Shown here one piece after another: positions 37,385 through 60,702 of a DNA stretch of 64,000 nucleotides. The position numbers and the translations under genes were made by a program. Positions within the stretch are counted from its first letter, which is position 1. Every line of letters begins with the position of its first letter. Source of the stretch: Halorientalis persicus. GTDB lineage: Archaea; Halobacteriota; Halobacteria; Halobacteriales; Haloarculaceae. Below the pieces are notes generated by a model. It did not search any database. It was given only the letters and a program-made list of their open reading frames with translations, and was not told the DNA's origin. The stretch is from NCBI RefSeq assembly GCF_900110215.1, contig NZ_FOCX01000009.1, forward strand, positions 1 to 64,000. Reading direction: 5' to 3'.

Positions 37385-37732
37385 CCGCACCGCAAAGTAC
37401 GCTACGGCGCGCTGGCGCGCGCCGGACGCGGTCCATCCCCCCTCACCAACGGCACAGCCGGGTTCGGGGGGATCCGTGACCGCACCGCAACAGCACCGCA
37501 ACCGCACCACACAGCCCCGCACGGCCCCACGACAGCACCGATAGGAGTCTGAGTGTGTTGTCTCTGGGAGTTGTGAGTGGCCGGTAAGGAGCCACTGCAG
37601 TCCCGCAGTGCCAACTCCGGACACGGTGGTGGGTCCTCTGTCCTCCAACCGCGGTACAGCGACCCAATCTGCCGCTACCCAATTTGCCGCTACCCAACTT
37701 GCGGCGACCCAGTGTGCTGCGACCTACTCTGT
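37385..37732 (+). repeat. Long repeat copy 1 with five 15-bp iteron-like units
   Basis: This copy starts with CCGCACCGCAAAGTACGCTA, passes GCGCGCTGGCGCGCGCCGG and a GGTTCGGGGGGATCC segment, then ACGGCCCCACGACAG. It ends in five tandem 15-bp units at 37658, 37673, 37688, 37703 and 37718, for example CGCTACCCAATTTGC. The same order of blocks occurs at 53181 and 60280 in the same orientation. It lacks the upstream GGGGAAAC hairpin of the other two copies. A winged-helix toxin-antitoxin pair follows. Confidence 0.85.
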
Positions 37733-37855
37733 ACCATTAGGCCCAGACAACCTCCCTACCTAGTTGAGGTGGTGTAATTGGATTTGCCAGCCAACAAGCG
37801 TGCAGAATGGCCACTCACCAAACGACTTATTACATCTTACAACAGTCTATTACAC

Positions 37856-38179
37856 ATGCCAATCAACATTGATCGATTTGAGAACGGGGCCGGAGATGCC
37901 CTTGATATCCAAGAGGGAACACAGCCCCACACGATTCTCACCTTTTTGGCGACCAATGACGATCAGGCGTTTACCCAGACCGAAATACACGACGCAACGG
38001 ATATCCCCCGGGGAAGCGTCGGTGTTGTTCTGTCTCGGTTAGAAGAACGCGGACTGGTGCGACATCGAGGGCGCTACTGGGCAATCGCAGCAGACGACCG
38101 ACTTGCCTCATACGCGGCACAGGGGGCTGCGAGTTCCACGTCAACGACGGATGATTATTACGGTGAGACCGACGGATGA
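37856..38179 (+). CDS. Winged-helix antitoxin-like regulator
   Basis: This 107-residue protein starts MPINIDRFENG. It has a helix-turn-helix (TQTEIHDATDIPRGSVGVVLSRLEERGL) and a wing (VRHRGRYWAIA). It is related to the proteins at 58621 and 62716 by its MPI/MPV start, the DIPRGSV-type recognition helix and the LxRL segment. It overlaps the PemK-like gene by four bases (ATGA), the usual arrangement of an antitoxin ahead of its toxin. It probably represses its own promoter and neutralises the toxin. An in-frame ATG at 37778 exists, but the shorter start matches the paralogues. Confidence 0.75.
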   Translation: MPINIDRFENGAGDALDIQEGTQPHTILTFLATNDDQAFTQTEIHDATDIPRGSVGVVLSRLEERGLVRHRGRYWAIAADDRLASYAAQGAASSTSTTDDYYGETDG

Positions 38180-38517
38180 CCGACCAGTCGTATGCCAGAG
38201 GGACTGTCGTAAAGGGGCCAGATCTTCTGGGCCCACACGACTATCGCCCGTATGTCTGCCTGAGCACCTCTGATCCCCCATTTCGTGAGGAAGAAGCCGT
38301 CTATGCAGTTGTAACGACGACACGTCGGTCTGATGCAATCCCACTCGGATCTGCAGATTTCACGAGTGGTGGGCTCCCCCGTGCCAGTTACGTCAACCCG
38401 TGGGTCCTCGTTACAATCAAACACGCCGATATCCAAGAGAAAGAAGGGCATCTTGCGGCCGATACCGTTGACAAGATTGCACGTGAGGCAGCAACCCATC
38501 TCGGCGCACTGGATTGA
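38176..38517 (+). CDS. PemK/MazF-like toxin
   Basis: The 113-residue protein has the small beta-barrel pattern of the PemK/MazF family: an N-terminal RGTVVKGPDLL strand pair, RPYVCLSTSDPPF, then VYAVVTTTRRSDAIPL, and a C-terminal helix (DTVDKIAREAATHLG). MazF-type proteins are sequence-specific mRNA endonucleases. Translational coupling to the winged-helix gene supports a type II toxin-antitoxin module that would stabilise the element. It shows only weak visible likeness to the toxin at 59101, so the two modules are not recent duplicates. Confidence 0.7.
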   Translation: MTDQSYARGTVVKGPDLLGPHDYRPYVCLSTSDPPFREEEAVYAVVTTTRRSDAIPLGSADFTSGGLPRASYVNPWVLVTIKHADIQEKEGHLAADTVDKIAREAATHLGALD

Positions 38518-38729
38518 GACTCAGCACTACGCTAGTAGTGTTCCGCAGTAGTGTTTGGATGTTTACACTGCAGTTAAGGGCGTGAGAGAACAGTCTCTAG
38601 AGTAGTTCATTTCAAGACTGCTGGAATGAATAGCCTGCTCAGTGTAGATGCATATTTACCTTCAGTGTGCAGAGAGGAGAACCAGTAGCGGCCAAATATA
38701 TACATATACAAAGTTATAGTTACCAATAA

Positions 38730-39233
38730 ATGGTAGATTGGCCAGCACTACGGACGAGACTTAGTGGGGCGAAAATACTCGTAGGAATGGGTGCCTGTCT
38801 GGTTCTGGTCGTCACCGCGTCAGTCACTACTGGTGCCTTTCCAGGACCGTGTAGTGACGGTTTATCATAGAACGGCCCCGTCGCCGAATTCAACACCACA
38901 TATAATGAGACAACGGAGTCGGCATCAGTGCACTACATCGAGGGAGATACTCTAACCACGAAATGGACAGATTCTCTTATGCTACTCGCTTCAGCAGACA
39001 CTGGTGATACTACCGAAACATATCCGCTCGCAACTACCGCTGGTGCGTTCCCGGTCACACCTAGCGATGAGTTTACAGTCAGTGATGTTACCGTTGCAGA
39101 TCGTCCGCTCACTGAGGGAGATATTTTACGTATCGTATGGCGTGGCTCTGAGGAACCACTACCAGTTTACTGCCTAAATAGCCGGGACGACACAACCCTA
39201 GAGACAACACTCGCGAAATACGTGGTGGAGTGA
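38730..39233 (+). pseudogene. Pilin-like (type IV pilin N-terminal domain) gene with in-frame stop
   Basis: A leaderless-looking ATG (TATA-rich 38693-38715) starts a frame with a hydrophobic helix (AKILVGMGACLVLVVTASVT). A TAG interrupts at 38868. The same frame then continues with VHYIEGDTLTTKWTDSLMLL and ILRIVWRGSEEPLPVYCLN, the beta-rich pattern of haloarchaeal pilin-like or archaellin-N-like secreted proteins. With the stop the N-terminal membrane helix is separated from the extracellular domain, so the gene is probably inactive. Confidence 0.6.
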
Positions 39234-39355
39234 CCCACGGATTATCGAGTGTCTCTTGTGAGAGGCGCTCAACATCTGTGAAGCGCAGTCTCTGCACTGA
39301 CCGACTGTCAAGCAGTAACCACACGCGATCTCTAACCGCTCAGTGCGTATGCGGA

Positions 39356-39772
39356 CTAATCAGTATGGCAACTCGAGCTATCAATCGGACACTCAGCGTT
39401 ATGCGCGTAAAATGATGTTTCCTGGTCCCCTACTTCAGCTATGACACTTACACAGCCGTCTTTATCTTCTGTATTGAAACTATTCCACTCCCCATCTTCA
39501 TGACGGGCCATTACTGTTACTGGTGCATCTGGCCAGACACAATCGACCATAATCCAATCAGGGTCAACCGTCAATTCGCGGGTCTCCGTATGGACTACTT
39601 CATCGGTATCAGTGCGTTCTATTCGTAATTCTACTGTGACCTCTGTAGATTCTGTGTTTACGAAGCTGAATTCCTGCATTGTCGCATACTCCTTACTGTC
39701 CGTAGAGGAACAGCCCGCCAGAATGCCGATTCCCCCACCCGCAGTAATACGAAGGAACTGCCGCCGCTTCAT
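39356..39772 (-). CDS. Small Tat lipoprotein (138 aa)
   Basis: The signal is MKRRQFLRITAGGGIGILAGC, cut into twin-arginine, hydrophobic and lipobox parts; Cys21 would be lipid-modified. The mature domain of about 118 residues is beta-rich with a DPDWIMVDCVWPDAPV segment and four Cys that may form two disulfides (CVWP, GCVSV, AECP, SSC). The layout suggests a single Ig-like domain exposed outside the membrane. It faces the pilin-like pseudogene. Function unknown. Confidence 0.7.
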   Translation of the reverse strand: MKRRQFLRITAGGGIGILAGCSSTDSKEYATMQEFSFVNTESTEVTVELRIERTDTDEVVHTETRELTVDPDWIMVDCVWPDAPVTVMARHEDGEWNSFNTEDKDGCVSVIAEVGDQETSFYAHNAECPIDSSSCHTD

Positions 39773-39831
39773 GATTAAGATCTCCGGCGGTTCCGGTAAG
39801 TGCTTTGTCTGTATTTAGCAGACCACTCCTA

Positions 39832-40449
39832 TCAGCCGATTGATGTTAAAATAGAGTCAATTCTATCCAAGCCGAGACGGGGATCTGGCGTACAAATCAG
39901 CGAATCCACAGGTGTTCCGAACAGACGAATCGACGCAAAGCCGTGCTGGAGGGTCGTCTCCCGGTCGCGGTCGGGACAAGCCACACCGTCGTAACCACAG
40001 TGGACGCGCCGCTTGTCGCCCCGCTCTCGATCAGCCATGTGGATGTTCAGCGACGACCAGCGAACACCAGAGTGGAAGCCGACGACGGGCTCTATGTCGT
40101 CGCATACCGTTGTGATCGCGTCCCAGGCCGCTTCCACCGCTTCGCGGAGCTGTGCATCCGAGGCGGCGACTTCGCTCGGGGCGTCTTGGAACTCGGCGTT
40201 GGCATTGTACCAGAGGTACACGCCCGGTGTGAGCGGCTCTTCGCGAGGGCAGCTCTTGTCGTAGTGGCTTGGATCGAGGACGACGTGGAAGCGTCCGGAC
40301 GGAATCGGCGAGCCACACAGGGTCGCTGACGTATCAGGATCCGCATCGTAGGCGTGGGCGTCGTCGACGCGATAATCTGCGACTGCACGGATGCTGTCGT
40401 TGGATTCTGCCTCGGTCGAGAAGGCAGTTAGGTCGGTCTGTTGGGTCAT
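39832..40449 (-). CDS. Hypothetical protein coupled to the Mom/GNAT-like gene
   Basis: This 205-residue protein begins MTQQTDLTAFSTEAESND. It contains segments such as GRFHVVLDPSHYDKSC, TPGVYLWYNANAEF and VGFHSGVRWSSLNIHMADRE. It has several Cys (CGYDGVAC) but no recognised zinc pattern. The ATG overlaps the stop of the upstream Mom-like gene (ATGA), so the two are translated together and may act in one pathway. The frame extends upstream of 40449, but that part overlaps the neighbour and is basic. I do not recognise the family. Confidence 0.6.
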   Translation of the reverse strand: MTQQTDLTAFSTEAESNDSIRAVADYRVDDAHAYDADPDTSATLCGSPIPSGRFHVVLDPSHYDKSCPREEPLTPGVYLWYNANAEFQDAPSEVAASDAQLREAVEAAWDAITTVCDDIEPVVGFHSGVRWSSLNIHMADRERGDKRRVHCGYDGVACPDRDRETTLQHGFASIRLFGTPVDSLICTPDPRLGLDRIDSILTSIG

Positions 40450-41021
40450 GTCCAGGAGTCGAGCGTGGATTGCTCTTTCACCTGTTCGATGGGACAGAGA
40501 AACCGCCACTTCCAGCGCTTCCTTATCGCCTTGTCCTCGCGGTTGCTGGCCTCGCTCGGTTCGGCGAACCCAGTACAGGTCCAGCCCTTGTCTCGGAGGG
40601 CTCGGATCATGGCGCCGTCGTAGTCGGCACGTACCCACGTCAGAAGGAACCGCGTCCCCTCCCGGTCAGCGGTGTCAGCGACGAACCGTTCCTGGGACCG
40701 CGCGAGCGCCGCCGAGGCGAGGTTGGGCATCCGAACACCGAGACAGATCCGGGCGGCCTCGACGAGCGTGTCGCCGGCGACGACCTCGTCGTCGACGATC
40801 TGGTTGGGGTCGATCTCGTCGAGGATCCGCCGGGCAGTCGGTCGGAGTTCCCGAGGGAGGTCCTCCTCGATGGTCACAGGTTGGGGTGCCAGCTGGCCGC
40901 CAGTCCGGTAGCGAATCCGCTTTTTCGAGATCAGGGGGTATCGGTAGGTGATTGCCCCGACGAGATTCCCCTGGAAGCGGACGCTGTGGTGAACGATATT
41001 CACCGACGGCAACGAATCCAT
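40446..41021 (-). CDS. Mom/GNAT-like protein, possibly missing its 5' end
   Basis: Segments VHHSVRFQGNLVGAITYRYP, EAARICLGVRMPNLASAALA and LLTWVRADYDGAMIRALRDK follow the acetyltransferase-like fold of the phage Mom and XF1762-type families. Mom modifies adenine in DNA to evade restriction. Translation from the ATG at 41021 gives 191 residues. However, 48 more codons (to 41165) remain open and look coding (CGCPIHADGEPFTAPLGLRF, IYKAHHSYM), with no ATG, GTG or TTG before a TGA at 41166-41168. The 5' end therefore seems to be lost or replaced. The family call is moderate and based on pattern only. Confidence 0.5.
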   Translation of the reverse strand: MDSLPSVNIVHHSVRFQGNLVGAITYRYPLISKKRIRYRTGGQLAPQPVTIEEDLPRELRPTARRILDEIDPNQIVDDEVVAGDTLVEAARICLGVRMPNLASAALARSQERFVADTADREGTRFLLTWVRADYDGAMIRALRDKGWTCTGFAEPSEASNREDKAIRKRWKWRFLCPIEQVKEQSTLDSWT

Positions 41022-41165
41022 GTAGGAGTGGTGTGCCTTGTAGATCGCCGCAGCCGTCTCGCGAGGAACCGGATCGACAGTGACGTGCTCGGCGAACCGG
41101 AGGCCGAGGGGGGCAGTGAAGGGCTCGCCGTCAGCGTGGATTGGGCACCCGCAGGTGGGACGATG

Positions 41166-41559
41166 TCAGTGCTGGAACGATGCTGTCTGTGCCGGAACCG
41201 AGCGTGTCTGGTGGGTCATCCCTCGCCCGACTGGGAAGAGACAAACGACCGGGTGTCTCCGCTGATAGAAGTTGTCGCTTTCTACGTGAGCAAGAGGCTA
41301 CCAGTACCGGCACCCTCGATGAACAGTCCTCGTTTCACACGGAAGCGGATCGTGTTCCGGCCCGGAGTAGTCTGGCCCCGAGTTCGGGATGGACGTTTCT
41401 GTGTCTGGCATTATTCTCACCTGCGATTAGCTAACTCAGATCATTGACCGAGCCCCAAGCTCGAGGCGCGTTCTTCAGGGATGAAAAGTCCAATACCGTT
41501 TTTGCCCTTCTAAAAAACACAGAAGTAGGCGCCGTCGAACTATTCATGCTATATTGCCA
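41166..41559. other. Intergenic region
   Basis: A plus-strand frame from 41163 to 41447 exists (MSVLERCCLCRN...), but its product is basic and unlike haloarchaeal proteins, so I do not call it. Near 41450 the composition changes from GC-rich to AT-rich, marking the edge of the AT-richer island. Confidence 0.3.
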
Positions 41560-42071
41560 ATGCTAACGGTTGGCTGTATTGGTAACTTTGGGTCTGATGA
41601 TTCCACGAATCAAGACTCAGATCCTTCAGCGGATGATACCGGTGAACAGGATCAGATAACTGAATCATAGGATTTCCCGCTTGAACTCGAAGCTACTGTC
41701 TCCTTATTGAAGTTCGATATTTCTCCAACAAAGGTCAAGCGCCATCCGGATGCTGAGTACCTTCCGGAGACCCGACCTTTTGTGGCAATCCTCTTTACTG
41801 CGACGAACACTACGACGTACGAGCGATATCTCACTAACAACGATTGGCGAATCTAAATTTCGGGCGAGTCCTACGATGACGGGGGTATGGAGACTCTGCA
41901 GTCCAGTACCCTGACCGCGTTAAACCAGATTACTCCCCCGAAAGTCCTCCAAGAAAAACGCGTGGTGCTTGGCTTGAGAGATATGTACCTACTGGGTTCG
42001 AAGGAGAAGAAGCGACTATTGCCTTAGACTGGAGGGGGACGCCTGAGGCTAATGCTCTGTGGTCATTCTAA
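41560..42071 (+). pseudogene. Decayed lipoprotein gene with two stops and a frameshift
   Basis: From the ATG at 41560 a short lipobox-like start (LTVGC) and an Asp-rich linker are read until a TAG at 41668. The same frame continues (PLELEATVSLLKFDISPTKV, FVAILFTATNTTTYERYLT) to a TAA at 41854, and on through ISGESYDDGGMETLQ. Around 41890-41904 the coding frame shifts, and the second frame (QYPDRVKPDYSPESPP ... ALDWRGTPEANALWSF) runs to a stop at 42069. The parts form one continuous protein of about 165 residues, so the gene is clearly inactive. Confidence 0.75.
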
Positions 42072-42217
42072 CTCCCAACGGTATCTCTCAATTTATACCT
42101 TTTTAGGTGAGATCTCACAACCAATGGGTAGATGAAGAAATTCATCCTTCTTGGAAACTTTATTAGAGGGAAAATGCTAGCACAAAATTTTTAACATTAA
42201 TAATAGAAAAGACAACC

Positions 42218-42709
42218 ATGGGAAAGTTAGAACTTTCGTTAATCACCCTTGTCATCATTTCAGGGTGTATTTTTCTGCCAGCAAACGATGGCCAATCAAG
42301 TAAGCAATTTGACGGAAACTATAGTGTGAATACTTCTGACGGTATTAGGTGTGGGGTGGAAGGTGTTTCGTTTGTTAGACCTGAATCAGCAAATGCATGG
42401 GATAATGACGAAATATTAGTTGGGTATGTGGCAAATAGTTCCAACTCAACACTATTTGTCGCCATGATCAACGGATCGATTCTTGGTGTTGGGATACAGA
42501 ATAGCTCTGGTAACGAGGAAATTAACCAAGATGGTTTGAAGATTAAACTAGATAAAGAATTAAATTCGGAGTATAATATTCGGGTGGTAGCGTTCAGAGA
42601 TTCGAATCAAAACTATAAATTTGATCAAAATAAGGATCTGCCGTGTATTAAGGAGAATGGTGAGTTGGTTCAGGCAGATATGAAGGTTGACTTTTCCAAA
42701 TATAATTAG
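42218..42709 (+). CDS. Small secreted lipoprotein-like protein
   Basis: The 163-residue protein has a hydrophobic N-terminus ending in a lipobox-like IISGC (Cys17). It is followed by a beta-rich domain with NNSS-type glycosylation sites. Internal segments include DNDEILVGYVANSSNSTLFV, IRVVAFRDSNQNYKFD and a late CIKENGELV. There is no twin-arginine pair, so export could be by Sec. The gene is AT-rich and isolated between a decayed lipoprotein gene and the Tat/HExxH pair. Function unknown. Confidence 0.6.
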   Translation: MGKLELSLITLVIISGCIFLPANDGQSSKQFDGNYSVNTSDGIRCGVEGVSFVRPESANAWDNDEILVGYVANSSNSTLFVAMINGSILGVGIQNSSGNEEINQDGLKIKLDKELNSEYNIRVVAFRDSNQNYKFDQNKDLPCIKENGELVQADMKVDFSKYN

Positions 42710-42866
42710 AACAGGTGCTACCGAATCTGATAGATTAGGATAACATGGTAATCTAACCTTGCGGACAATCACTCAAATAATTCATTCATTGTATTAATCT
42801 GATCAAACCACAGATATGTGGGGGAGTAGCAATGTTTATTAGGGACCCGCATTTTGAATTACCTGT

Positions 42867-43673
42867 ATGCCAAGCAGAAATACTAAAAGAAAAGGGGGAG
42901 CAGATGACAATAATTCATCGCGGTCTCGCAGGCAAATACTAAAGGATGCTTCCTGTCTCGGTACGGGAGCTGTTTTGATGTCCGGTGCTGGTTCAGCAGC
43001 TCCGGCAAAAGAAGCCATTAAGAATCAACAGGAAACCGGGAGAGGAAAATTTCAGGATTTCGGAGTGGATTTTACTATTAATTCGGCGGACGGTGAGCCC
43101 AAAATCATCAATGAGTGTACCCCACCGAAATATGAGGTCAATGAAGACAGGGTAATTCTGTATTCTGACCGGGTACAAGATAAATCGCTAGGTGATCTCC
43201 AGATGGCCAACGGATGGGTTCCTAGTCATGAACTACATGAAAAGATGTTCTCCGGAATCAAGAATCGAAGCGTAGTGTCCAATGCTGAGTTTCTCCCTAC
43301 CACCTTAGGGAATTCTCTACACCCAAGACAGGGGGTGAAGTTGGGACAGGCTGATTTCGGAAATATTAATCATGGTGATATCATGAAAGAGCTAGCCCAG
43401 GAACCACCAGAAGGAGATAAGATCGAAGTGGAACTTAATCCCCTGACTGTGGAAATATCAGTTCGCCAAAAGGAAAAAACCGATGCAAATGTCGAAGAGC
43501 TACGGAAGGAACTTTCTATCCCTCCAGAAAAGGTACCAGAAAATACTGACAAGAAACCTGTCGTATATAATTATGAGTCGGTTGAGGCAACAGTCACACC
43601 GAGGATCATTATAAGAAATCATGGTCAGGTTACCGCTCACAAAGCAGCTAATAGAATGGAGGTATCACAATGA
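42867..43673 (+). CDS. Tat-exported protein paired with the HExxH gene
   Basis: The 268-residue protein has a twin-arginine-type signal (SRSRRQILKDASCLGTGAVL, then SGAGSAAPA). It is not a lipoprotein signal, so the protein is probably released. The mature part has few hydrophobic segments and ends in a beta-like stretch (YNYESVEATVTPRIIIRNHG). Its stop overlaps the ATG of the next gene (ATGA), so both are made together. It may act as a chaperone, inhibitor or partner of the downstream metalloprotease-like protein. No family is recognised. The start is preceded by a TATA-like stretch near 42835. Confidence 0.6.
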   Translation: MPSRNTKRKGGADDNNSSRSRRQILKDASCLGTGAVLMSGAGSAAPAKEAIKNQQETGRGKFQDFGVDFTINSADGEPKIINECTPPKYEVNEDRVILYSDRVQDKSLGDLQMANGWVPSHELHEKMFSGIKNRSVVSNAEFLPTTLGNSLHPRQGVKLGQADFGNINHGDIMKELAQEPPEGDKIEVELNPLTVEISVRQKEKTDANVEELRKELSIPPEKVPENTDKKPVVYNYESVEATVTPRIIIRNHGQVTAHKAANRMEVSQ

Positions 43674-45411: not shown

Positions 45412-45464
45412 GAACGAAATCCTCCACCCAACCGGGGGAGAACAAACAGATGGCGGCAGAATTG

Positions 45465-46157: not shown

Positions 46158-46171
46158 CGCTGTTCCCCCTC

Positions 46172-49719: not shown

Positions 49720-50268
49720 ATGACAACGCACATCCCACGATCTAGGAGTACTGGCTGCACTGTCGGCGTCGTCGGCTCGCAGTACATCAACAACACGATG
49801 CTGGCGTCGGTCGAGCCGCCGACGCTCGGGGTTCGAGACTGTCCCGAGACCGACTGCAAGAACTACGACAAGCTGTTCGCGACCGTCGACAGCCACTTGG
49901 TACGGCTCAATCCCGACGAGATCCTCGTGCCCGGTGGCTCTGGCCCGGAGAATGCCGCCCACCACTGGGGCGACATCCACAACGTCGACGTCTCGGTCAC
50001 GACAGAACACGGTGGAGAGATGCCCCACTGGCTACGCCAACGGGCGGTGATGCAGCGGGCGGACAAACTACTGGCGTTGGTCGCAACTACGAAGCGTCTT
50101 TGCACCAACAGTTCTGGCTTTGTCGTCCCAGAGAATCCCGACGAGCGCGGACTCGCTATCGTCAACGAGGCCCAGGATCGGTTCGCCGACGGCGATCGGA
50201 TCGCCGTCGTGGTAACGAGCAGTCGGCCGTCTTCTCCATCGTCTAGTGGGAGCGCACAGCCCCGTTGA
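49720..50268 (+). CDS. SLOG/DUF2493-like nucleotide-binding protein
   Basis: This 182-residue Rossmann-like protein has an N-terminal strand-loop (CTVGVVGSQYINNTML) and a central Gly-rich segment (DEILVPGGSGPENAAHHWGD). HWLRQRAVMQRADKLLALVA follows, in the order seen in DUF2493/SLOG proteins, which bind nucleotides or NAD-like ligands. The C-terminus runs into the 84-bp tandem repeat region, and the last 10 residues (SSPSSSGSAQPR) are low-complexity. The ATG at 49720 starts a basic stretch, and similarity to the fold begins about residue 13. Possible roles are nucleotide sensing or defence. Confidence 0.55.
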   Translation: MTTHIPRSRSTGCTVGVVGSQYINNTMLASVEPPTLGVRDCPETDCKNYDKLFATVDSHLVRLNPDEILVPGGSGPENAAHHWGDIHNVDVSVTTEHGGEMPHWLRQRAVMQRADKLLALVATTKRLCTNSSGFVVPENPDERGLAIVNEAQDRFADGDRIAVVVTSSRPSSPSSSGSAQPR

Positions 50269-50560
50269 GGAGATGCGAGGGAACCAGACGATCATGTCGG
50301 GAATCGTCGCTTCCGTGAGCGGTCAGCAGGGCCGCGCCCGCAGCCCCGTTGAGGGGATGCGAGGGAACCAGACGATCATGTCGGGAATCGTCGCTTCCGC
50401 GAGCGGTCAGCAGGACCGCGCCACAGCCCCATTGGGGGTATGCGGGAGAACCAGACGACTATGTCGGGAATCGTCGCTTCCGCGAGCGGTCAGCATGGCC
50501 GCGCCCGCAGCCCCGTTGTGGGGATGCGAACGGAGCAGACGATCATGTCGGGCAGTCCTC
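50257..50560 (+). repeat. 84-bp tandem repeat, about 3.6 copies
   Basis: Units start CAGCCCCGTTGAGG at 50257, 50341, 50424 and 50508, with period 84 (once 83). Each contains GATGCGAGGGAACCAGACGA followed by TCATGTCGGGAATCGTCGCTTCCG and GAGCGGTCAGCA. The 83-base step breaks any common frame, so a long coding repeat is unlikely. The GCGAGGGAACCAGA part resembles leaders of nearby genes (52620-52640). The array lies upstream of the RPA gene; the stretch 50561-50707 holds nothing clear. Confidence 0.85.
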
Positions 50561-51706: not shown

Positions 51707-51786
51707 ACAGAGAGCGTTCTGGCATCCACGGTATCGTTCGCAAAGCAGTCGCGGTGCGGTCGCGGTTCCAACATTCAATTCCAACA

Positions 51787-52554: not shown

Positions 52555-52639
52555 TCTGGGTCTCGCCCCCGCGGTCTTTTTTTGCTGACTGGTTCGCCGG
52601 GCCGCCCACACATTGTGGAGTGGCGAAGGAACCAGAACC

Positions 52640-53053
52640 ATGGGCGCAGACCGAGGCAGGACGAAGTGGGGACACCTGGTCGAATCGCCAGACAACCACC
52701 CTGAAGAGAGTACTACAGCGAACAGCGAGACCGACGAAAGCGAACCCGACGGCGACATCCCAATCACGCTGGACAAGCAGATCGTCGTCGTCACTGACAG
52801 TAGTGACGATCGCGAAGACCGCTATCGCGTTCGCGTCGTCCACAGCGATGCCGAGTGGTCGCCTGTCGTCTCCCACGCGACGCACGACCACCGACTCGCC
52901 CCCAGCCGCACCTGGGATCGAGTCGGGATGTGCGACTGGGACGAGCTGCCACTCTTGGTTCGCCATCGAGTCGCGGCAGCCGTCGCCGGCGTCGATGAAC
53001 CAGCCGATCTGGACCCGACTAAATACGGCTTCTCGCGGGTGAGCGGCGAGTGA
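52640..53053 (+). CDS. Hypothetical acidic protein (137 aa)
   Basis: After an acidic disordered start (to about residue 50) the protein has a compact domain: DKQIVVVTDSSDDREDRYRV, EWSPVVSHATHDHRLAPSRT, then a helix (LPLLVRHRVAAAVAGVDEPA). It has no Cys cluster or membrane segment. The ATG at 52640 is preceded by GGCGAAGGAACCAGAACC, a leader resembling those in the 84-bp repeats and before the gene at 62051. Downstream lies long repeat copy 2. Family unknown. Confidence 0.55.
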   Translation: MGADRGRTKWGHLVESPDNHPEESTTANSETDESEPDGDIPITLDKQIVVVTDSSDDREDRYRVRVVHSDAEWSPVVSHATHDHRLAPSRTWDRVGMCDWDELPLLVRHRVAAAVAGVDEPADLDPTKYGFSRVSGE

Positions 53054-53180
53054 GCAGCCAGCCCAGCAGGGGGACAGGACCGCAGTACGGCACCCGCACA
53101 GCGACAGCAACAGCCGGCGCGCGCGGTAGTTCGCCCCCTCGCGCGCGCCTCCGCCACAGCATCCGGCAACAGCCGCCAAC

Positions 53181-53690
53181 AACCAGCACGCGCGTTCGCT
53201 GGCGCTCTCACACGCGGATATCACCCACTCGGGGAAACGCACCTCCGTTTTCGTTTCCCCCCGAGTTTGGACCGCACAGGGCCCGCACCGCAAAAGTACG
53301 CTACGGCGCGCTGGCGCGCGCCGGGAGCGGTCCATCCCCCCGAACCAACCGCACAGCAAGGTTCGGGGGGATCCGGGGCCGCACCGCAACCGCAACAGCA
53401 CCGCGACCACACCGCACTGCACGGCCCCACGACAGTACCAATGAATGGAGCCCGAATAGTGAGTGTGGAAAGTTGGGAGTAGCCACTGGGGACGGGTGTA
53501 GCCGACAGCTGCCAATTCCAGACACGGTGGTGTGTCCTCCGTCCCCCAGCCACCGTACAGCGACCCACTCCGCAGCGACCCATTTTGCCGCTACCCATTT
53601 TGCCGCTACCCACCTTGCCGCTACCCACTTTGCCGCTACCCACTCCACACCACTAGAGCTAGCTAGACAACTTCCCCGATAGTTGAGTGG
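53181..53690 (+). repeat. Long repeat copy 2 with hairpin and six 15-bp iteron-like units
   Basis: The copy begins AACCAGCACGCGCG and has a hairpin ACTCGGGGAAAC (53227) with GTTTCCCCCCGAGT (53253). It then has the CCGCACCGCAAAAGTACGCT, GCGCGCTGGCGCGCGCC and GGTTCGGGGGGATCC blocks. It ends in six 15-bp units at 53559, 53574, 53589, 53604, 53619 and 53634, such as CGCTACCCATTTTGC. After the units CTAGACAACTTCCC and AGTTGAG also match copy 1. The remaining intergenic bases to 53819 show no gene. Confidence 0.88.
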
Positions 53691-53819
53691 TCCGTCAATC
53701 GTGGATTGATGAGTTCGATAGGCTGTTCGCCCAGTTCATGGAACTCGAACGAACTGCTATCTGTCAGAACCGAAGTGATGGATACAACGCGCGTATCTTG
53801 TATAGAGGGAATCCCGCGT

Positions 53820-54515: not shown

Positions 54516-54665
54516 GACGGTTGACGCTCATTCACAAAAATATGAATAAGCCATTCACAATAAAACATATACACTCTATATCGGTCATGCCCCTTCTGTC
54601 AGTTGTTGATACTACCTTCCCTCCGTTAGAGTAGCGGACCCACAAGAACGAGTTTGGAACTCCAC

Positions 54666-55187
54666 TCAGTCGACCGTCTCGGGGTGCTGCTGGTCGCTCA
54701 CGAGTTGCCGTATTATGTCTCGCTCTCGGTTCGAGTAGGCGATAACACGAACGTGTTCGAGTGTCGTCGGTTCGTACGCCCAGATCTCGTCGCAGATGAG
54801 GGATGCGCCTTCGTTCGTGTGGAACCCGCCGGAGCCACAGCCAAGCAATGGCAGTACCAGCGATTCGCAGCCGAGTTCATCGGCCGTTTCGAGGGAATTT
54901 TGCGTGGCCTCACGGAGACTCTTGGCAGTTGCGATTGGGTGCGGGCCTGAATGGGACATCGCAGCTGCGTGGATCACGTAGTCGGCATCGAGATCGTACG
55001 CATCTGTGACAACCGTCCCCAGTTCGACTGGTCCACAAGCGACTGCGTCGCGCTCGAGTGGCCCGTTTGCTGCGTCGAGTAACGTGCCGGCAACGCCACT
55101 TCCCATCTTGAGTGAGGTCCCGGCAGCGTTCACCAGTGTGTCCGCCTCTTGTTGGGCAATGTCGCCTTGGAGGACGCAGAAGTCCAT
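54666..55187 (-). CDS. Macro-domain protein (ADP-ribose binding or hydrolase)
   Basis: This 173-residue protein is almost entirely a macro domain. GDIAQQEADTLVNAAGTSLK carries the Asn-Ala-Ala substrate loop, and GSGVAGTLLDAANGPLERD the Gly-rich loop. YVIHAAAMSHSG and LLGCGSGGFHTNEG cover the distal phosphate-binding loop. Macro domains bind ADP-ribose or remove it from proteins, DNA or small molecules. The usual substrate residues are present. It follows a 34-residue gene on the same strand. Presence on a mobile element together with deoxyribosyltransferase-like and SLOG-like genes suggests nucleotide-based signalling or conflict functions (inference). Confidence 0.85.
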   Translation of the reverse strand: MDFCVLQGDIAQQEADTLVNAAGTSLKMGSGVAGTLLDAANGPLERDAVACGPVELGTVVTDAYDLDADYVIHAAAMSHSGPHPIATAKSLREATQNSLETADELGCESLVLPLLGCGSGGFHTNEGASLICDEIWAYEPTTLEHVRVIAYSNRERDIIRQLVSDQQHPETVD

Positions 55188-55242
55188 TCTGGATCAGGGT
55201 GTATCGATCGGAGAGCTAGCGACTGCTCCGTTCGATTCTCCG

Positions 55243-55347
55243 TCACGAAGAGTCCGTCTCGAAGACATCTAATTGCCGCTGATCGTGGGTAGTCACGCCC
55301 TCTGGGGTGTGTTCGCTCATTCGCTCGATTAGCTCTGAGGCGGACAT
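55243..55347 (-). CDS. 34-residue small protein upstream of the macro-domain gene
   Basis: MSASELIERMSEHTPEGVTT continues HDQRQLDVFETDSS. It has haloarchaeal composition and the ATG is preceded by GAGGAAGAGT, a Shine-Dalgarno-like stretch. It lies 55 bases before the macro-domain gene on the same strand and could be its operon partner. No family is known. Confidence 0.4.
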   Translation of the reverse strand: MSASELIERMSEHTPEGVTTHDQRQLDVFETDSS

Positions 55348-55435
55348 ACTCTTCCTCGCTTCTCCAGGCAAATAAAATACATTATAAATTATCTGGTTTC
55401 TCTACGCTTGATAGACCGTCGGTTGAGGAATGTCA

Positions 55436-56332
55436 CTACTGCAATTCAGCTTTTATTCGAGAGATCGCAGTGTCTGTGTCGAAATCACCCGCGGATGGGC
55501 CAACGACGCCGACCTCTTCGTCTGGGAGGAACCATATTCGGGCAAAGCCCGTTGTAGCGTCGACTCCGCCGACGTTCCAAATCTCTTTCTGCCAGTAGCT
55601 GGCAGTCTTTCCCGCGTGGAGTCGATTCACGTCTTCGGGGATCGGTTCTTCCTTTAGTTCTGTATAGCCTGCTTCGGTGAGCGTTTCTCCATCCAGATCA
55701 TCGATCAGATTTGCCGTCAGTCGGGTTCGGAACTCCTCAACGGTCGCCTGATAGACGTCATCGGCGTATTGCTCGACGTCTCTCGACGGGGTTTTTTGGC
55801 TGACGTGGTCGAACACCGCGTCCGGATCGTCGACGGAGAAACTCGCGCTGTAGAGTGTCGCTTCGACCGTTTTCATTACTGTTCCATCGGGATGCGCGTA
55901 GAGAATCACGTCGACAACCGGGTAGTCACCGATCTTCGGAGCGGTCGGATCGGGGATTTCGATGAGCGCGTTCTCGGAAATAGTCGTGATAGACTTGTAG
56001 TTCTCCTGAAGATATGTGAAGAAGGCACTAACCGCCTGTTCATTCGGATTCGCATTGAGGTGCTGGAGATATCGCTGAATGTCTCGTATTGCCTCGGCGT
56101 CGTCTGGGATATCAGAGAGCATCCCGATGTGCTTCGAAAAATCACGAATAGCTCCCCAGATCACTTCTCCAGGAATGTTCCCTTCGCCGCCCTCCGCGAG
56201 AAGCATCCTGTCGAACTCATATATAGAGATACGGTCCGTCTCGACATCCTGAACGAACCGGTCGACATAGTGATCGATGAATTGTCCCGAGTCGATGTGC
56301 GCGAAGAGTTCCTCTTCGTCTAAATCCCTCAC
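55436..56332 (-). CDS. Hypothetical soluble protein (298 aa)
   Basis: The N-terminal half is helical (MRDLDEEELFAHIDSGQFID, VIWGAIRDFSKHIGMLSDIP). The C-terminal half is alpha/beta (VVDVILYAHPDGTVMKTVEA, GETLTEAGYTELKEEPIPED, FARIWFLPDEEVGVVGPSAG). No catalytic motif, Cys pair or membrane helix is visible. It starts 89 codons after a divergent wHTH gene region and lies upstream of the macro-domain gene group on the same strand. The codon use is typical. I do not recognise the family. Confidence 0.6.
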   Translation of the reverse strand: MRDLDEEELFAHIDSGQFIDHYVDRFVQDVETDRISIYEFDRMLLAEGGEGNIPGEVIWGAIRDFSKHIGMLSDIPDDAEAIRDIQRYLQHLNANPNEQAVSAFFTYLQENYKSITTISENALIEIPDPTAPKIGDYPVVDVILYAHPDGTVMKTVEATLYSASFSVDDPDAVFDHVSQKTPSRDVEQYADDVYQATVEEFRTRLTANLIDDLDGETLTEAGYTELKEEPIPEDVNRLHAGKTASYWQKEIWNVGGVDATTGFARIWFLPDEEVGVVGPSAGDFDTDTAISRIKAELQ

Positions 56333-56464
56333 AATCCAATTAGCCCTCGTTGGGGGAGGCGATAAAATCTTCTCTTAGCCATCAGTCTCTCCTCCCAATA
56401 AAACGAACTCACGTAGGGGAGGTCACGTATCGCAGACTATTTTCAAACAGGCATCCTACGCCAA

Positions 56465-56731
56465 ATGGACCTGCTCGATATGTCGACATGCGATACTGAG
56501 GGCGTGTCCGATCTGGCGCCGAGTGCCAAGCTCGTCTACAAGGTCCTCGAGTACAACGGCGAACTGACCCAGAAACAGATCGCAGAAAAATCCCTCTTGT
56601 CTCCACGGACGGTACGCTATGCATTAAACGAACTCGAATCCGCCGGCGTCGTCGAGGACGATATTTACTTCGCAGACGCGCGACAGCGGCTCTATCGGCT
56701 CACCGAGTCGGATGCTACTGGGTCGGAATAG
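56465..56731 (+). CDS. MarR/winged-helix regulator (88 aa)
   Basis: The protein has a complete winged helix: APSAKLVYKVLEYNGELTQK, QIAEKSLLSPRTVRYALNEL, ESAGVVEDDIYFADARQRLY. Recognition-helix residues SPRTVRYAL match the haloarchaeal MarR/TrmB-like small regulators. An in-frame ATG at 56480 (MSTCDTEG) is an alternative start. Its stop at 56729 lies only seven bases before the outer repeat of the IS1595 element, so the insertion may have removed its downstream partner. It is divergent from the gene at 56332 and may control it. Confidence 0.7.
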   Translation: MDLLDMSTCDTEGVSDLAPSAKLVYKVLEYNGELTQKQIAEKSLLSPRTVRYALNELESAGVVEDDIYFADARQRLYRLTESDATGSE

Positions 56732-56737
56732 ATTCCT

Positions 56738-57741
56738 CGCTCTTGTGACATAGATTGTTGGTGAGTCACAGTGCAGTTTCGAGGATGGTTTTGAGCGCTT
56801 CTTCACCCGGTTTTCGAAGCACTTCACGGTGAAGCTGAAACGCTCGGAGATACGGTGTGAGTCTGTCTTTGGAGACGCCTCGATGCGGCGAGAGCCACCG
56901 TCGCGCCAGCGACGCGTGGCTCTCGCAGGTGTTCACATGAACGTCTCCATCGGCGTACTCGCCGTCGCCGTGGACGACGTATTCACGAGTGAATGCGTCG
57001 TCCTCGTCTAGCGGTTCATACGCCCGAAAGCCGTCGGTATAGACGGTGAGCGACTCCTGCTGGCGGTCGGCCAGCAGGAGTCGAATCGTCGATTCGGTAG
57101 CGGCTTTCGCCGGGATCACGTACCGATCACCGCTGCCACGATCCGCGAGAATGAACACGGGTGGCTTGTCCTCGGTGTACGTTCCACATCCACGCGTGGA
57201 CAGCGCACGCGAGCGCGACGGGCCGTCGCGCTCGCGGCCTTTGTGTCCTGCCTTCACGTAGAACTCGTCGATCTCAACCGGCCCTTCGAGATCGAACTGA
57301 GGCGCGTCCAGCGCTCGCAGGAAGCGCTGGACGCGCCGGTAGATCGTCTTGTACGAAACATCGAGTTCTACGTCTAACTGCCGAAGACTCGTGTTGAAGC
57401 GGATATAGGTGTAGACCGCGAGGAACCATTTTCTGAGTGCCACCGCTGAGTGTTCGAAGACGGTGCCGGTCTGATCATTGAACGTGCGGTCGCAATCCTT
57501 ACACAGATACCGCTGAAACACGCGATAGCTGCCGTACCGAATCACAGATTCGGCACGGCAGCGTGGGCAATAGACGCCGTTACGCCAGCGAACCTGCTGT
57601 AACAGGTTCGCGGCTCGACGCTCCGAGACGAACGTCTTGATTGGGAACATCGTTCGTCGGGTGACGCGGTCGCGTCACCCTTGCCCGCTGTGACTTCCAG
57701 CTACCGCTGGACTCTCACCAACAATCCTCTACCCAAGAGCG
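56738..57741 (-). mobile_element. IS1595-family (ISH4-like) insertion sequence
   Basis: The ends carry inverted repeats GATTGTTGGTGAG (56753-56765) and CTCACCAACAATC (57714-57726). Seven bases outside them a second pair, CGCTCTTG (56738-56745) and CAAGAGCG (57734-57741), is also inverted. I see no 8-bp target duplication beyond either boundary. The right side lies against the remnant of another transposase gene. Confidence 0.75.
56766..57650 (-). CDS. IS1595-family transposase
   Basis: The 294-residue protein has an N-terminal zinc ribbon (CPRCRAES ... CKDCDRTF) and the segment FNDQTGTVFEHSAVALRKWF typical of IS1595. The catalytic core follows: VEIDEFYVKAGHKG with the first Asp, SLTVYTDGFRAYEPL with the second Asp, and VHVNTCESHASLARRWLS with Asn/Glu candidates for the third position. 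It is full-length for the ISH4 group. The gene lies on the minus strand inside its inverted repeats and looks intact. Confidence 0.88.
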   Translation of the reverse strand: MFPIKTFVSERRAANLLQQVRWRNGVYCPRCRAESVIRYGSYRVFQRYLCKDCDRTFNDQTGTVFEHSAVALRKWFLAVYTYIRFNTSLRQLDVELDVSYKTIYRRVQRFLRALDAPQFDLEGPVEIDEFYVKAGHKGRERDGPSRSRALSTRGCGTYTEDKPPVFILADRGSGDRYVIPAKAATESTIRLLLADRQQESLTVYTDGFRAYEPLDEDDAFTREYVVHGDGEYADGDVHVNTCESHASLARRWLSPHRGVSKDRLTPYLRAFQLHREVLRKPGEEALKTILETAL

Positions 57742-57872
57742 TTCTTGATCGTGTCCGCACTCTCGCAGTGCGGACACGTCACCTCATCCGGCCATCGCTG
57801 CTCACGGAGATACTCCAGACAATCCTCCTTGTCAGGCAGAAAGACCTCGTCCACGCTCTCTCTGCTGACCAT
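57729..57872 (-). pseudogene. N-terminal fragment of another IS1595-like transposase
   Basis: MVSRESVDEVFLPDKEDCLE continues YLREQRWPDEVTCPHCESAD and ends TIKNALG at a stop. This matches the start and first zinc-ribbon half of IS1595-type transposases. The frame breaks exactly at the outer repeat of the neighbouring element, so that element probably inserted into an older one, whose remainder is not present on the other side. Confidence 0.6.
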
Positions 57873-57974
57873 CTTGGAGCCAGTTACGAACTCCACTCAC
57901 AAGGAAGTATTCACTGCTACAGATGAGCGTCTCACAATACATCCAAGACAGTGGGCTGGCTATTCTGGGCTGAT

Positions 57975-58250
57975 ATGCACGATCTGACTGGGTTTCAGCG
58001 CGATCTCCTGTACGTGATCGCCGGCATGGACGATCCCCACGGCCTCGCGCTCAAAGACGAGATGGACGACTACTACGAGTCAGAGATCCACCACGGCCGC
58101 CTCTACCCCAATCTCGATACGCTCGTCGACAAAGGACTGGTCAAGAAGGGCTCGAAAGACCGCCGCACCAACGTCTATACGCTCACCCAGCGCGGCCGCC
58201 GCGAGATCGAGGTCCGGCGCGAGTGGGAACAGGACTACCTCGACTGGTAG
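57975..58250 (+). CDS. PadR-family regulator (91 aa)
   Basis: The sequence MHDLTGFQRDLLYVIAGMDD, PHGLALKDEMDDYYESEIHH, GRLYPNLDTLVDKGLVKKGS and YTLTQRGRREIEVRREWEQD is a standard haloarchaeal PadR winged helix. The GRLYPNLDTL segment is the recognition region and the last helix is for dimerisation. PadR proteins repress transcription in response to small ligands. The ATG at 57975 matches the family N-terminus. Upstream lies IS debris and downstream an unassigned region, so its target is not evident. Confidence 0.88.
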   Translation: MHDLTGFQRDLLYVIAGMDDPHGLALKDEMDDYYESEIHHGRLYPNLDTLVDKGLVKKGSKDRRTNVYTLTQRGRREIEVRREWEQDYLDW

Positions 58251-58580
58251 GCGTCCAGCCAGCCACCGCCTGGCCGCGATCCGACCGCCGTAGTGGCGAC
58301 GGGCGCTCTCACGCGACTGCCTGTTACTCACCGGGCTTGCGGACGATCAAGAAGTCGCTGAGATCGTCAATGCAGCGGGCCGGCACGCGGAGCCGGCCGT
58401 TGTCAATTGTCTCGAACCCGGAGACCGACGAATCCGCAGGCGCAACGAGTACCGCCTCGAGTGCGCCCTGACAAAAATCGTCGGGATGGGGCTGCAGCGA
58501 CGGGTGTTCTGGGCTGGTTCGCAAACGCCCGTTCGGGCTGCTCGGTGAACGGTCAGTACAGGGGAGTAGTTGACCAGTAT
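58251..58580. other. Intergenic region with a possible minus-strand gene fragment
   Basis: On the minus strand, bases 58480-58324 read GALEAVLVAPADSSVSGFET, IDNGRLRVPARCIDDLSDFL and IVRKPGE. This is protein-like, but the only in-frame ATG is at 58644, inside the next gene. It may be the C-terminus of a truncated gene. Nothing else is visible. Confidence 0.3.
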
Positions 58581-58620
58581 GCTTATCCGCTACAAATGCG
58601 TACAAACGCGTACACTCAAA
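58581..58620 (+). promoter_or_regulatory. TATA box and 10-bp-phased direct repeats before the 58621 gene
   Basis: A TATA-like TTATCCG near 58582 lies about 35 bases before the ATG. Between them TACAAATGCG (58591), TACAAACGCG (58601) and TACACTCAAA (58611) form direct repeats with a 10-bp step. Such an array over the start site fits an operator for autorepression by the winged-helix protein. Confidence 0.45.
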
Positions 58621-59070
58621 ATGCCGATCGATCTTCGCAAACACGACCCCGACGACCCAATCACGATCCGACCAGAGACGAACAAAGCCAAAATCATCAA
58701 ACTACTGTACCTGAACACGAATCTCGGCTTCACACCCGCAGAGATCCAAGACGAACTCGACCTGCCGCGCGGAACCGTGTCGGGGACACTCTCCCGACTC
58801 CATGGCGAGGGGCTCATCGGGAAAACGAGCGACGGGCTCTACCACGGCCTCGACCACCGTGAGGACCTCCGCCGGTTCGCGCAAAGCCTCGTCTCACTCG
58901 ACACGATGCTGTCTCGGTACCCTGAAGCTGGGATCGATCCGGACGACGTCGAGCAAACCGGTGCGAGTGCGAAAACGGAAATCCCGACCGACCGCCTGCA
59001 GGAACGGGATACACCACGCGAAGAACCCACACCGGAGGAATGGGTCGCAGCTGAAAACGACGAGGCGTAA
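58621..59070 (+). CDS. Winged-helix antitoxin-like regulator
   Basis: This 149-residue protein begins MPIDLRKHDPDDPITIRPET. It has a winged-helix domain (KAKIIKLLYLNTNLGFTPAE, IQDELDLPRGTVSGTLSRLH, GLIGKTSDGLYHGLDH) and an acidic C-terminal tail of about 60 residues that could bind the toxin. It is clearly related to the proteins at 37856 and 62716. The PemK-like gene follows after 30 bases. The frame extends 17 codons upstream, but the start at 58621 matches the paralogues and the promoter spacing. It probably represses its own operon. Confidence 0.78.
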   Translation: MPIDLRKHDPDDPITIRPETNKAKIIKLLYLNTNLGFTPAEIQDELDLPRGTVSGTLSRLHGEGLIGKTSDGLYHGLDHREDLRRFAQSLVSLDTMLSRYPEAGIDPDDVEQTGASAKTEIPTDRLQERDTPREEPTPEEWVAAENDEA

Positions 59071-59100
59071 CACTCGACCACTTGTTCACGAGCTACCTTT

Positions 59101-59448
59101 ATGTCATATTACTATCCGCAAGGCAGTCTGGTATTTGCTCAAGACCCGACCGGCGCGCACACGAATCCGCGCCCGGTGATCGTGATTTCTGATGTTGACC
59201 GGCCGTACGTCGAACAGGAAGCGACGGTTGTGTGTCTCAGTACACAGAACGATTATTCGCACGACGTGACGCGGCTTCCGCACGAGTTCGTTGACGGCGT
59301 CGAGTTACGGAAGACGAGTTACATGATGCCGTGGGCGATTTACACAATCCCGCTCTCATCGATTCGAGATAATCTCCCGTCTGGAGAACTGACGCGTGAG
59401 GGGTTGGAACTCGTTGCGGATACGATCGACGGAATGATTCGCCCTTGA
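59101..59448 (+). CDS. PemK/MazF-like toxin
   Basis: The 115-residue protein has the PemK/MazF pattern. SYYYPQGSLVFAQDPTG is the first strand-loop, and NPRPVIVISDVDRPYVEQEA carries the RP(V/Y)hhhhS core. ATVVCLSTQNDYSHDVTRLP and RKTSYMMPWAIYTIPLSSI follow, then a C-terminal helix ending AEDTIDGMI-like (ELVADTIDGMIR). Placement after a winged-helix gene matches the pair at 37856-38517. It probably acts as an mRNA interferase held in check by the upstream protein. Confidence 0.72.
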   Translation: MSYYYPQGSLVFAQDPTGAHTNPRPVIVISDVDRPYVEQEATVVCLSTQNDYSHDVTRLPHEFVDGVELRKTSYMMPWAIYTIPLSSIRDNLPSGELTREGLELVADTIDGMIRP

Positions 59449-59540
59449 CTCAACCATGACATGGGGGACGAAACCACTGTCCACGCGGGCTGACTCCCTC
59501 GTCCTCGGCCAGTTGTGGATACGCCACTGAAGTGAGCAGT

Positions 59541-60197
59541 ATGAGTAGATCAGCACCGACGTGGACGTTCTCGGCATCGCGAACTCCCAACGCTCCTGTC
59601 CCCAGTGGAGTCCTCGGCCAACAACTCACTGCCATCGACGCCTACACTCCGATCGACCAGTATTCGGTCGATCCTGTCGCGTTCAGTTTGCTCGACGAGA
59701 CACTCGAAGGGCGCTCGTTTGATCTGGACCAGGCCCGCGAGTATATGTTCAACGAACTCGCCGACGAGTTCCTCTCGACCGCTCGCGATGCGTGCTCTCC
59801 AGAGCAAATCGTCGAGGTCAACGGGCTCCCGATGGCTACCGAACTGCCGTGGGAGAAAGCGCTGTCGGCCCTGACGCGTGGGTTTTTCAACTGTTATCAG
59901 GCGTGGGAGTCGTTCGTTTTTGACGCCACAGCGGTCGGGCACCCAAAGCTGTTCGCGGCTCTCGATCGTGATGCACTCCCGGAAACGATCCAGCCAACAG
60001 ACGAGCACACCTGGAACCGCCTGTTCAAGACTGCGGTCACGCACTGCCTCTCGCTCGTCATCAACGGCGCGCTCACCGTGCAGATGCTGGACCAACGCGA
60101 CCAGAGCGCCGATGAAAGCGAGACTCAGACAGAAACGCCGGTCGAAACCACGCCGGCAGACGAGCCGGCAGAGCTGGACGCCCACTCTGGAATCTGA
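59541..60197 (+). CDS. Hypothetical protein (218 aa)
   Basis: This is a soluble, helix-rich protein with segments FDLDQAREYMFNELADEFLS, EVNGLPMATELPWEKALSAL, FFNCYQAWESFVFDATAVGH and FKTAVTHCLSLVINGALTVQ. It ends in a Thr/Glu/Pro-rich acidic tail. No catalytic motif is visible. A GTG at 59532 is an alternative start. It lies after the toxin-antitoxin pair and before long repeat copy 3. Family not recognised. Confidence 0.6.
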   Translation: MSRSAPTWTFSASRTPNAPVPSGVLGQQLTAIDAYTPIDQYSVDPVAFSLLDETLEGRSFDLDQAREYMFNELADEFLSTARDACSPEQIVEVNGLPMATELPWEKALSALTRGFFNCYQAWESFVFDATAVGHPKLFAALDRDALPETIQPTDEHTWNRLFKTAVTHCLSLVINGALTVQMLDQRDQSADESETQTETPVETTPADEPAELDAHSGI

Positions 60198-60279
60198 CCA
60201 CTGCCCCATCTCCAATGAATCACCGAATCCAGCGCGCGTTTGTTCGCTCCCTCGCGCGCTGGATCAAGCGGCCGACAGC

Positions 60280-60702
60280 AACCAGCACGCGTGTCCGCTA
60301 TCGCTCTCACGCGCGGATTGTCCCCCACTCGGGGAAACACACCTCCGTTTTCGTTTCCCCCGAGTTGGACCGCACAGGAGCCGCACCGCAAAAGTACGCT
60401 ACGGCGCGCTGGCGCGCGCCGGACGCGGTCCATCCCCCTCACCGACGGCACAGCCTGGTTCGGGGGATCCAGGGGCCGCACCGCGGCCGCCCAGCAACCA
60501 CACCACGACCACAATACCGGTGACGACAAGATTAGGTGTTCTGAGGTTTGAGAATTGAATATGGCCACGTGTCATGGGAGCACGCAGTCGTCTCTGGCCC
60601 CCTCCGTCCAAAGGCGAACCCCTTACTCTCCAGCCACCGTACAGCGACCCAATTTGCAGCGACCTAATCTGCCACGACCCACATCGCAGCGACCCACTCC
60701 AC
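60280..60702 (+). repeat. Long repeat copy 3 with hairpin and four 15-bp iteron-like units
   Basis: The copy begins AACCAGCACGCGTG and has the hairpin ACTCGGGGAAAC (60327) with GTTTCCCCCGAGT (60353). CCGCACCGCAAAAGTACGCT, GCGCGCTGGCGCGCGCC and GGTTCGGGGGATCC follow. It ends with four 15-bp units at 60643, 60658, 60673 and 60688, for example AGCGACCCAATTTGC. The middle part diverges more from the other copies. All three copies have the same orientation. Confidence 0.85.

Follow-up and report, generated by a model that had tools for sequence, protein, structure and literature searches.

Bases 1–64,000 of contig NZ_FOCX01000009.1 of Halorientalis persicus (the window; the contig, C67, is plasmid-like, 160,887 bp long and belongs to a genome in 121 contigs) carry three direct copies of a repeat that share one block order and orientation and end in five, six and four head-to-tail 15-bp units, respectively. 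Each array is preceded on its 5' side by a GC-rich hairpin module and then a nearly T-free, C/A-rich linker. We tentatively regard the copies as one replicon-specific, non-coding cis-element of two modules on a conjugation-type plasmid, the plus strand of which would work in single-stranded form; we hold this to be possible rather than probable. The original prediction had described three copies with a common block order and orientation and 5, 6 and 4 phased units, and this was confirmed by direct reading, Tandem Repeats Finder (TRF) and BLAST.

The units occupy plus-strand positions 37657–37731 (copy 1), 53558–53647 (copy 2) and 60642–60701 (copy 3) by direct reading and TRF, the 15-bp arrays called by TRF itself being at 37659–37724, 53563–53644 and 60642–60696. 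The consensus of the 15 units, C-N-G-C-(G/T)-A-C-C-C-A-N-T-(T/C)-(T/C)-G, is not palindromic; positions 1, 4, 6, 7, 8 and 10 are invariant, and positions 2, 5, 11 and 13 are the most variable. A BLAST search of the own genome with copy 2 (E ≤0.01) returned only itself, 37385–37731, 60280–60513 and 60630–60697, with E values of 1e-72, 4e-68 and 5e-11 for the matches to the other two copies. The places first assigned to the copies were right, but copies 2 and 3 begin earlier than was thought, with hairpin H1 at 53116–53149 and 60227–60264. Conservation, which had been stressed for the repeats as a whole, is not strongest in the units (72–82% identity): the hairpin core is 91–98% identical among the three copies, the left block 89% between copies 2 and 3, and the linker and spacer 69–77%. 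Despite this divergence of the spacer, the distance between the last base of the H6 arm (taken as 37473, 53372 and 60468) and the first unit is 184, 186 and 174 bp in copies 1, 2 and 3. The units are contiguous, without the unique spacers of a CRISPR array, and no open reading frame (ORF) of at least 90 residues runs through the array in every copy, as a protein-coding repeat would require. A plus-strand ORF (53050–53682) crosses the array of copy 2, while those of copies 1 and 3 end earlier (37552 and 60558); minus-strand ORFs cross the arrays of copies 2 and 3 (53221–53643 and 60399–60932), and that of copy 1 (37316–37648) does not.

The hairpin module of copies 2 and 3 consists of H1, H3, H4/H5 and H6, all on the plus strand. 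In copy 2, H1 (53116–53149) has a 10-bp stem and the loop GTAGTTCGCCCCCT (RNA folding z score –2.8); H3 (53227–53266) pairs ACTCGGGGAAAC with GTTTCCCCCCGAGT (z –3.9); in H4/H5 (53268–53334), H4, TGGACCGC/GCGGTCCA, encloses H5, CGGCGCGC-TGGC-GCGCGCCG; and H6 (53327–53385) has a perfect inner stem of 13 bp and an outer stem (z –6.4). Copy 3 has an H1 with a 12-bp stem and the loop TTTGTTCGCTCCCT (60227–60264; z –5.3), an H3 (60324–60368) and a core of H5 and H6 (60381–60471), its H6 being one C and one G shorter than that of copy 2. Copy 1 keeps only the H5–H6 core (37385–37475, plus strand; H5 arms 37405–37412/37417–37424, H6 arms 37435–37447/37461–37473), which is 92–98% identical to the cores of copies 2 and 3; its left hairpins are lost or beyond recognition. 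As DNA, the plus-strand module of copy 2 (53114–53385) folds with a z score of –4.4, and 0 of 200 shuffles were as good. The linker, spacer and array that follow (53386–53647) gave +0.87, and the array alone –1.4. A simple count of hairpins gave three in copies 2 and 3, above all of 30 shuffles (≤2).

The linkers, again on the plus strand, lie at 37474–37547 in copy 1, 53373–53441 in copy 2 and 60476–60525 in copy 3. Their T content is 3–4%, measured over 72 nucleotides in copy 1 (37474–37545; 3%), 56 in copy 2 (53386–53441; 4%) and 50 in copy 3 (4%), and the measured part of the copy 2 linker appears unstructured (fold z 0.09). Depletion of T would be unneeded in a binding site on double-stranded DNA and useful for keeping a single strand open.

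Stems differ between copies in ways that preserve pairing. Between copies 2 and 3, H1 has three double changes in 12 pairs with pairing kept, a figure that fell to 0–1 when the arms were slid by 1–3 columns; the two outer H1 pairs form in copy 3 only. In copy 3 the left arm of H6 is short of one C and the right arm of one G, and H6 also contains a single plus-strand G-U/A-U exchange. These changes hint at selection on pairing, and we rate them as suggestive because so few sequences are available.

The same plan recurs on a second contig of this genome, C34 (13,645 bp; L243), which was reached through a paralogue of the RPA-associated gene; two RPA-like loci are also found on a single plasmid in NZ_CP101168.1. 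C34 has three elements, read on the minus strand. Elements A (about 2030–1740) and B (790–480) each have a GC-rich hairpin block, a T-free linker and about four units of ~26 bp, CAACAGGCGAAAACCAGCAGACCGGC and variants (3.7 and about 3 copies by TRF), and the T content of their linker plus array is 3–4%. Element C (11840–11660) has a GC-rich hairpin block; it and A follow a stop codon. The central stem of A and B differs from that of C on both sides at 2 of 10 pairs, with no pair broken. The C34 elements thus have the plan of the C67 copies with almost unrelated sequence and a different unit. Copy 3 and C34 A nevertheless share an identical 18-bp linker string (local score 36, against at most 30 in 100 shuffles), and 3 of 9 copy-by-element comparisons scored above all shuffles while 6 did not. 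In 18 sequences of 914,903 bases by summed lengths, we counted 53 T-poor tracts (≤1 T per 60 nucleotides); the longest, 179 nucleotides, is at C34 B and the third longest at C34 A. C67 has eight of these tracts, among them the linkers of copies 1 and 2 and a tract next to H1 of copy 2. The C34 elements were found in 1 of 195 genomes, their own, and had no match among plasmids.

The copies lie in a setting that suggests what such an element might do. C67 carries orc1, RPA, TFB, PCNA and type IV secretion system (T4SS)-like genes, and its proteins include RPAP, OB-fold, TraG-P-loop and TrbL matches to Pfam. It has in common with the haloarchaeal plasmids NZ_CP101168.1 and NZ_CP101155.1 Orc1, large HerA/TraG-like proteins, an OB-fold protein, RPA, an RPA-associated protein, TFB, PCNA, and AAA and VWA proteins. 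No end overlap of C67 was found, and its circularity is therefore unproven. The copies surround the RPA operon. Copy 2 comes after it, separated by a single gene; copy 1 is ahead of a helix-turn-helix (HTH)/PemK-like pair (37778–38517); and copy 3 follows another such pair (58570–59448) and an orphan gene, present in 1 of 145 genomes, its own, and precedes TFB. The two pairs are homologous, contrary to the earlier statement that the flanking genes are not. A search of IMG/VR with the neighbouring protein encoded at 63125–63985 gave no relative. MOB-suite typed as 'non-mobilizable' all 44 plasmid records in which this plasmid's RPA-associated gene has a relative.

These neighbours (RPA, TFB, the toxin–antitoxin-like pairs and the T4SS-like genes), together with a bacterial precedent, are the reason for placing the element on entering DNA. 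Bacterial leading regions combine SSB genes, toxin–antitoxin genes and structured single-stranded DNA promoters (PMC11541004). In the mechanism that we propose, the plus strand would act while single-stranded, most likely as plasmid DNA entering by conjugation, within an RPA-centred establishment region. The hairpins would fold once the strand is single, escape coating by RPA and serve as landmarks; the T-free linker and phased array would remain open and offer four to six like sites to a plasmid protein. Binding of a plasmid protein to the array is possible. The array could in this way load a replicon-specific factor, from which priming or early expression would start. A close alternative is that the plus strand works as a transcript.

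A number of results weigh against an element that works as a single strand of DNA. H4/H5 of copy 2 is hardly above shuffles (RNA z –1.8), and the simple hairpin count of copy 1 (one, against ≤2 in 30 shuffles) is within chance. The value for double changes in H1, with two sequences compared, was reached by 64 of 500 shuffles, and that for the C34 stem by 50 of 500; RNAalifold found 0 of 35 core pairs doubly changed and an unfavourable covariation term, on an automatic core alignment that misplaces the H6 C/G loss. T-poor tracts also occur within annotated genes of related plasmids, the arrays of C67 contain 13–21% T and are not T-poor, and C34 element C is without tandem units. No instance of the plan turned up in the related-plasmid stretches analysed, mostly of 20–40 kb each. 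No relaxase was detected among 40 C67 proteins scanned against Pfam, no origin of transfer (oriT) is known for the plasmid, and movement of single-stranded DNA by this T4SS is assumed. Between the copies, genes are encoded on both strands, unlike those of bacterial leading regions; no archaeal promoter or TATA-like box was seen by eye in the GC-rich stems; and RPA-associated genes are present in 145 of 145 genomes and are not special to plasmids.

The strongest rival is binding of the arrays as double-stranded DNA, in which a plasmid protein would occupy the three sites as iterons and pair or spread them (partition, copy-number control, handcuffing), the hairpins being incidental or architectural. 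Exact phasing of direct 15-bp units, four to six per site at three sites, the only ones detected in the genome, is what this would predict, as is the non-palindromic consensus, which is usual for head-to-tail iterons. It leaves the paired changes in the hairpins and the T-free linkers unexplained, however, and the contents of C67 do not favour it. The genome has 24 matches to the ParA-type ATPase (PF13614), of which none is on C67, although ParM and TubZ types were not searched and C67 may be incomplete. The orc1 homologue is at the start of the contig (4–1479; 44.8% identity to the annotated Orc1/Cdc6 of NZ_CP101168.1), with other, 20-bp tandem repeats at the start of its ORF (52–102; TRF) that form a candidate plasmid replication origin separate from the 15-bp arrays. 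The nearest 15-bp array on this contig is 36 kb from this gene, whereas an iteron origin would have its repeats beside an initiator gene; a second initiator located elsewhere is conceivable. The role in partition or replication control proposed in the original prediction is thus unsupported rather than excluded, and it also leaves the sister elements of C34 unaccounted for. We consider binding of double-stranded arrays rather unlikely overall.

Two further tandem repeats were noted in the window. Following the T4SS-like operon, 2 kb of AT-rich DNA that seems to be non-coding (25871–28100) contains a 73-bp tandem repeat (27717–27891) and is a candidate oriT or origin, and an 84-bp repeat (50257–50552, 3.5 copies) lies at the called ORF start of an RPA-like gene, the true start of which may be downstream. 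A 2061-residue protein (16985–23170), with a large relative on NZ_CP101168.1, matches HerA/DUF87 weakly, with a score under the Pfam cut-off.

An RNA element is unlikely in our estimate. Here an upstream transcript would enter the element, which would form either a 3' region that is structured and poor in U or a distinct non-coding RNA whose units bind an RNA-binding protein, with a role as terminator, insulator or stabiliser. In copies 2 and 3, and likewise in C34 A and C, the element starts about 30–65 nucleotides 3' of the stop codon of a predicted gene in the same direction, and H6 has the plus-strand G-U/A-U exchange given above; both are in favour of this reading. In a Haloferax reporter, termination at a hairpin was 59% (PMC7237163). 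The same study describes Haloferax intergenic terminators as T stretches, and a second report gives U-rich RNA as the preference of FttA (PMC11616081); a T-free tract is the opposite of both, so a role as terminator would be unusual. Rfam 15 gave no match above the gathering score in the window or in L054, a stretch of a related plasmid. The idea that the element replaces a U-tract terminator was dropped: by heuristic gene calls, 4 of 89 long-gap C67 genes have T5 or more within 70 nucleotides, and since so few have one, the missing T run after the neighbouring genes is uninformative.

Least probable, and in our view doubtful, is that the copies are remnants of non-autonomous mobile elements or recombination cassettes (miniature inverted-repeat transposable elements, MITEs, or attC-like) spread by duplication. 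There are several intergenic copies in a region with insertion sequence (IS) genes, and further intergenic repeat families occur nearby and on C34. However, no terminal inverted repeats were found at the chosen ends, where the scores were reached by 147–191 of 200 shuffles, and there is no target-site duplication beyond one shared 6-mer at copy 1. Divergence is uneven between core and spacer and stem changes are paired, unlike neutral decay. An IS or MITE with terminal repeats, which would have overturned the original prediction, is therefore unlikely. Part of the tail of copy 2 (53648–53690, plus strand) recurs in copy 1 (33 matches in 40 aligned columns), and the tail runs into an IS-like remnant. 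This 112-bp stretch (53686–53797) begins at the end of copy 2, has an inverted second copy at C67 140816–140705 (88%) and is probably an IS remnant.

Two other intergenic families were observed. One has direct repeats at 30109–30210, 33015–33254 and 34130–34361 of the window and on the minus strand of C34 (L243, 11471–11550); these are 78–90% identical to the copy at 34110–34361, and each C67 member sits at a T6 tract immediately past a stop codon. It resembles a cassette-like array of small genes and had no match among plasmids. The other, on C34 (L243; 7553–7626, 7648–7716, 11351–11419 and 11573–11638), has four copies of about 66 bp in one orientation, two of which follow an RPA-associated gene.

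No relative of the C67 element was found outside its own genome, metagenomes not being among the data searched. A blastn search of 72,556 plasmids gave no match to the element, and IMG/VR gave none for two core patterns or in a further pattern search; a looser two-unit pattern matched 106 IMG/VR stretches, with a single match in each of the 80 listed. Of 392 genomes of the order, only the element's own contained the two-unit pattern. Among 145 relatives, 14 genomes matched, including the own; 12 of the 13 others did so only around the low-complexity linker (query 184–259), and one at query 10–43 (34 bp, E 9e-4). An array sequence model and a core structure model run over 24 sources found only the three copies below E 0.5. 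A single unit is unspecific: with two mismatches allowed, it had seven matches in the genome, six of them in the copies, and a reversed control pattern had five. Within the reach of the plasmid, IMG/VR core-pattern and 392-genome searches, the suggestion of an undescribed haloarchaeal repeat family is supported, and no description of such an element was found in the literature searched (titles and abstract starts, with most subscription journals outside the scope). Absence of the unit from related plasmids had been named as a point that would count against the original prediction; the unit was indeed not found in the related stretches, but the plan recurs on C34 with another unit.

Several candidates were rejected. 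The array model matched 6 of 116 genomes including the own, the five others looking like coding repeats without a hairpin module (by eye, two with TRF), and the one match in a scan of genome contigs, in Bordetella, was taken as chance. The hairpin loop TTTGTTCGC is shared with a Natronomonas plasmid, probably by chance, a clear stem being present in the own copy only; the loop pattern occurs in 22 of 195 genomes including the own, and the flanks of 24 matches and of two from IMG/VR were read by eye.

Other repeats were seen in the related plasmids. TRF found six arrays of period 9–40 with at least 2.4 copies in 18 related sequences (780,371 bases), two of them without an open frame (L065, 12451–12557; L070, 13956–13981). 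Direct repeats there are mostly of 30–120 bp, some within duplicated RPA genes. Short ones of 30–56 bp in one orientation occur in L063 (6533–6588, 7007–7062, 7191–7222 and 16510–16544) and similar ones in L055 (106–137, 804–842 and 949–992); that at L063 6533–6588 ends at a gene start, and these repeats may be common promoter or operator boxes. In a Natronomonas marina plasmid, L054 6500–8330 (NZ_CP101155.1, about 109500–111340) is part of a 3.1-kb non-coding region with many hairpins (10, against ≤7 in 30 shuffles) that share CTACCC/GGGTCCCTTC-like strands and differ in their outer stems; it may represent a structured RNA or an origin.

Little is known about how large plasmids of haloarchaea move, how they start up and how they retain their identity, and a compact two-module element whose plan, rather than sequence, is repeated on two contigs of one genome offers a concrete handle on their biology. 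More speculatively, and on balance unlikely, haloarchaeal conjugative plasmids in general may own single-strand establishment elements that combine an RPA-proof hairpin landmark with an array recruiting each family's own factor, through 15-bp units on C67 and ~26-bp units on C34.

Among known systems, MITEs and IS ends are likewise multi-copy intergenic repeats with hairpins, but the C67 copies are without terminal inverted repeats or target duplication at the ends chosen. Haloarchaeal Orc1/Cdc6 origins carry origin recognition box (ORB) repeats, and C67 also has repeats on an orc1-bearing replicon; compared by layout and not by unit sequence, these differ in being 15-bp tandem units located, on the contig, at least 36 kb from orc1. 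Iteron origins and par centromeres consist of phased short direct repeats in non-coding DNA, as the arrays do, whereas C67 has three dispersed sites, an upstream hairpin module, no ParA-type match and separate repeats by orc1. The Frpo/ssi elements of the F plasmid and its relatives are structured intergenic elements, several per region, that accompany genes for a single-stranded DNA-binding protein and toxin–antitoxin genes (PMC11541004). The C67 element differs from them in its phased array, its archaeal host, genes on both strands, no promoter seen and no oriT or relaxase known. If its plus strand does act single-stranded, it could be put forward as an archaeal analogue of the single-stranded DNA elements of leading regions; and if such elements are general among haloarchaeal conjugative plasmids, they would correspond in archaea to Frpo/ssi, with an address tag in addition.

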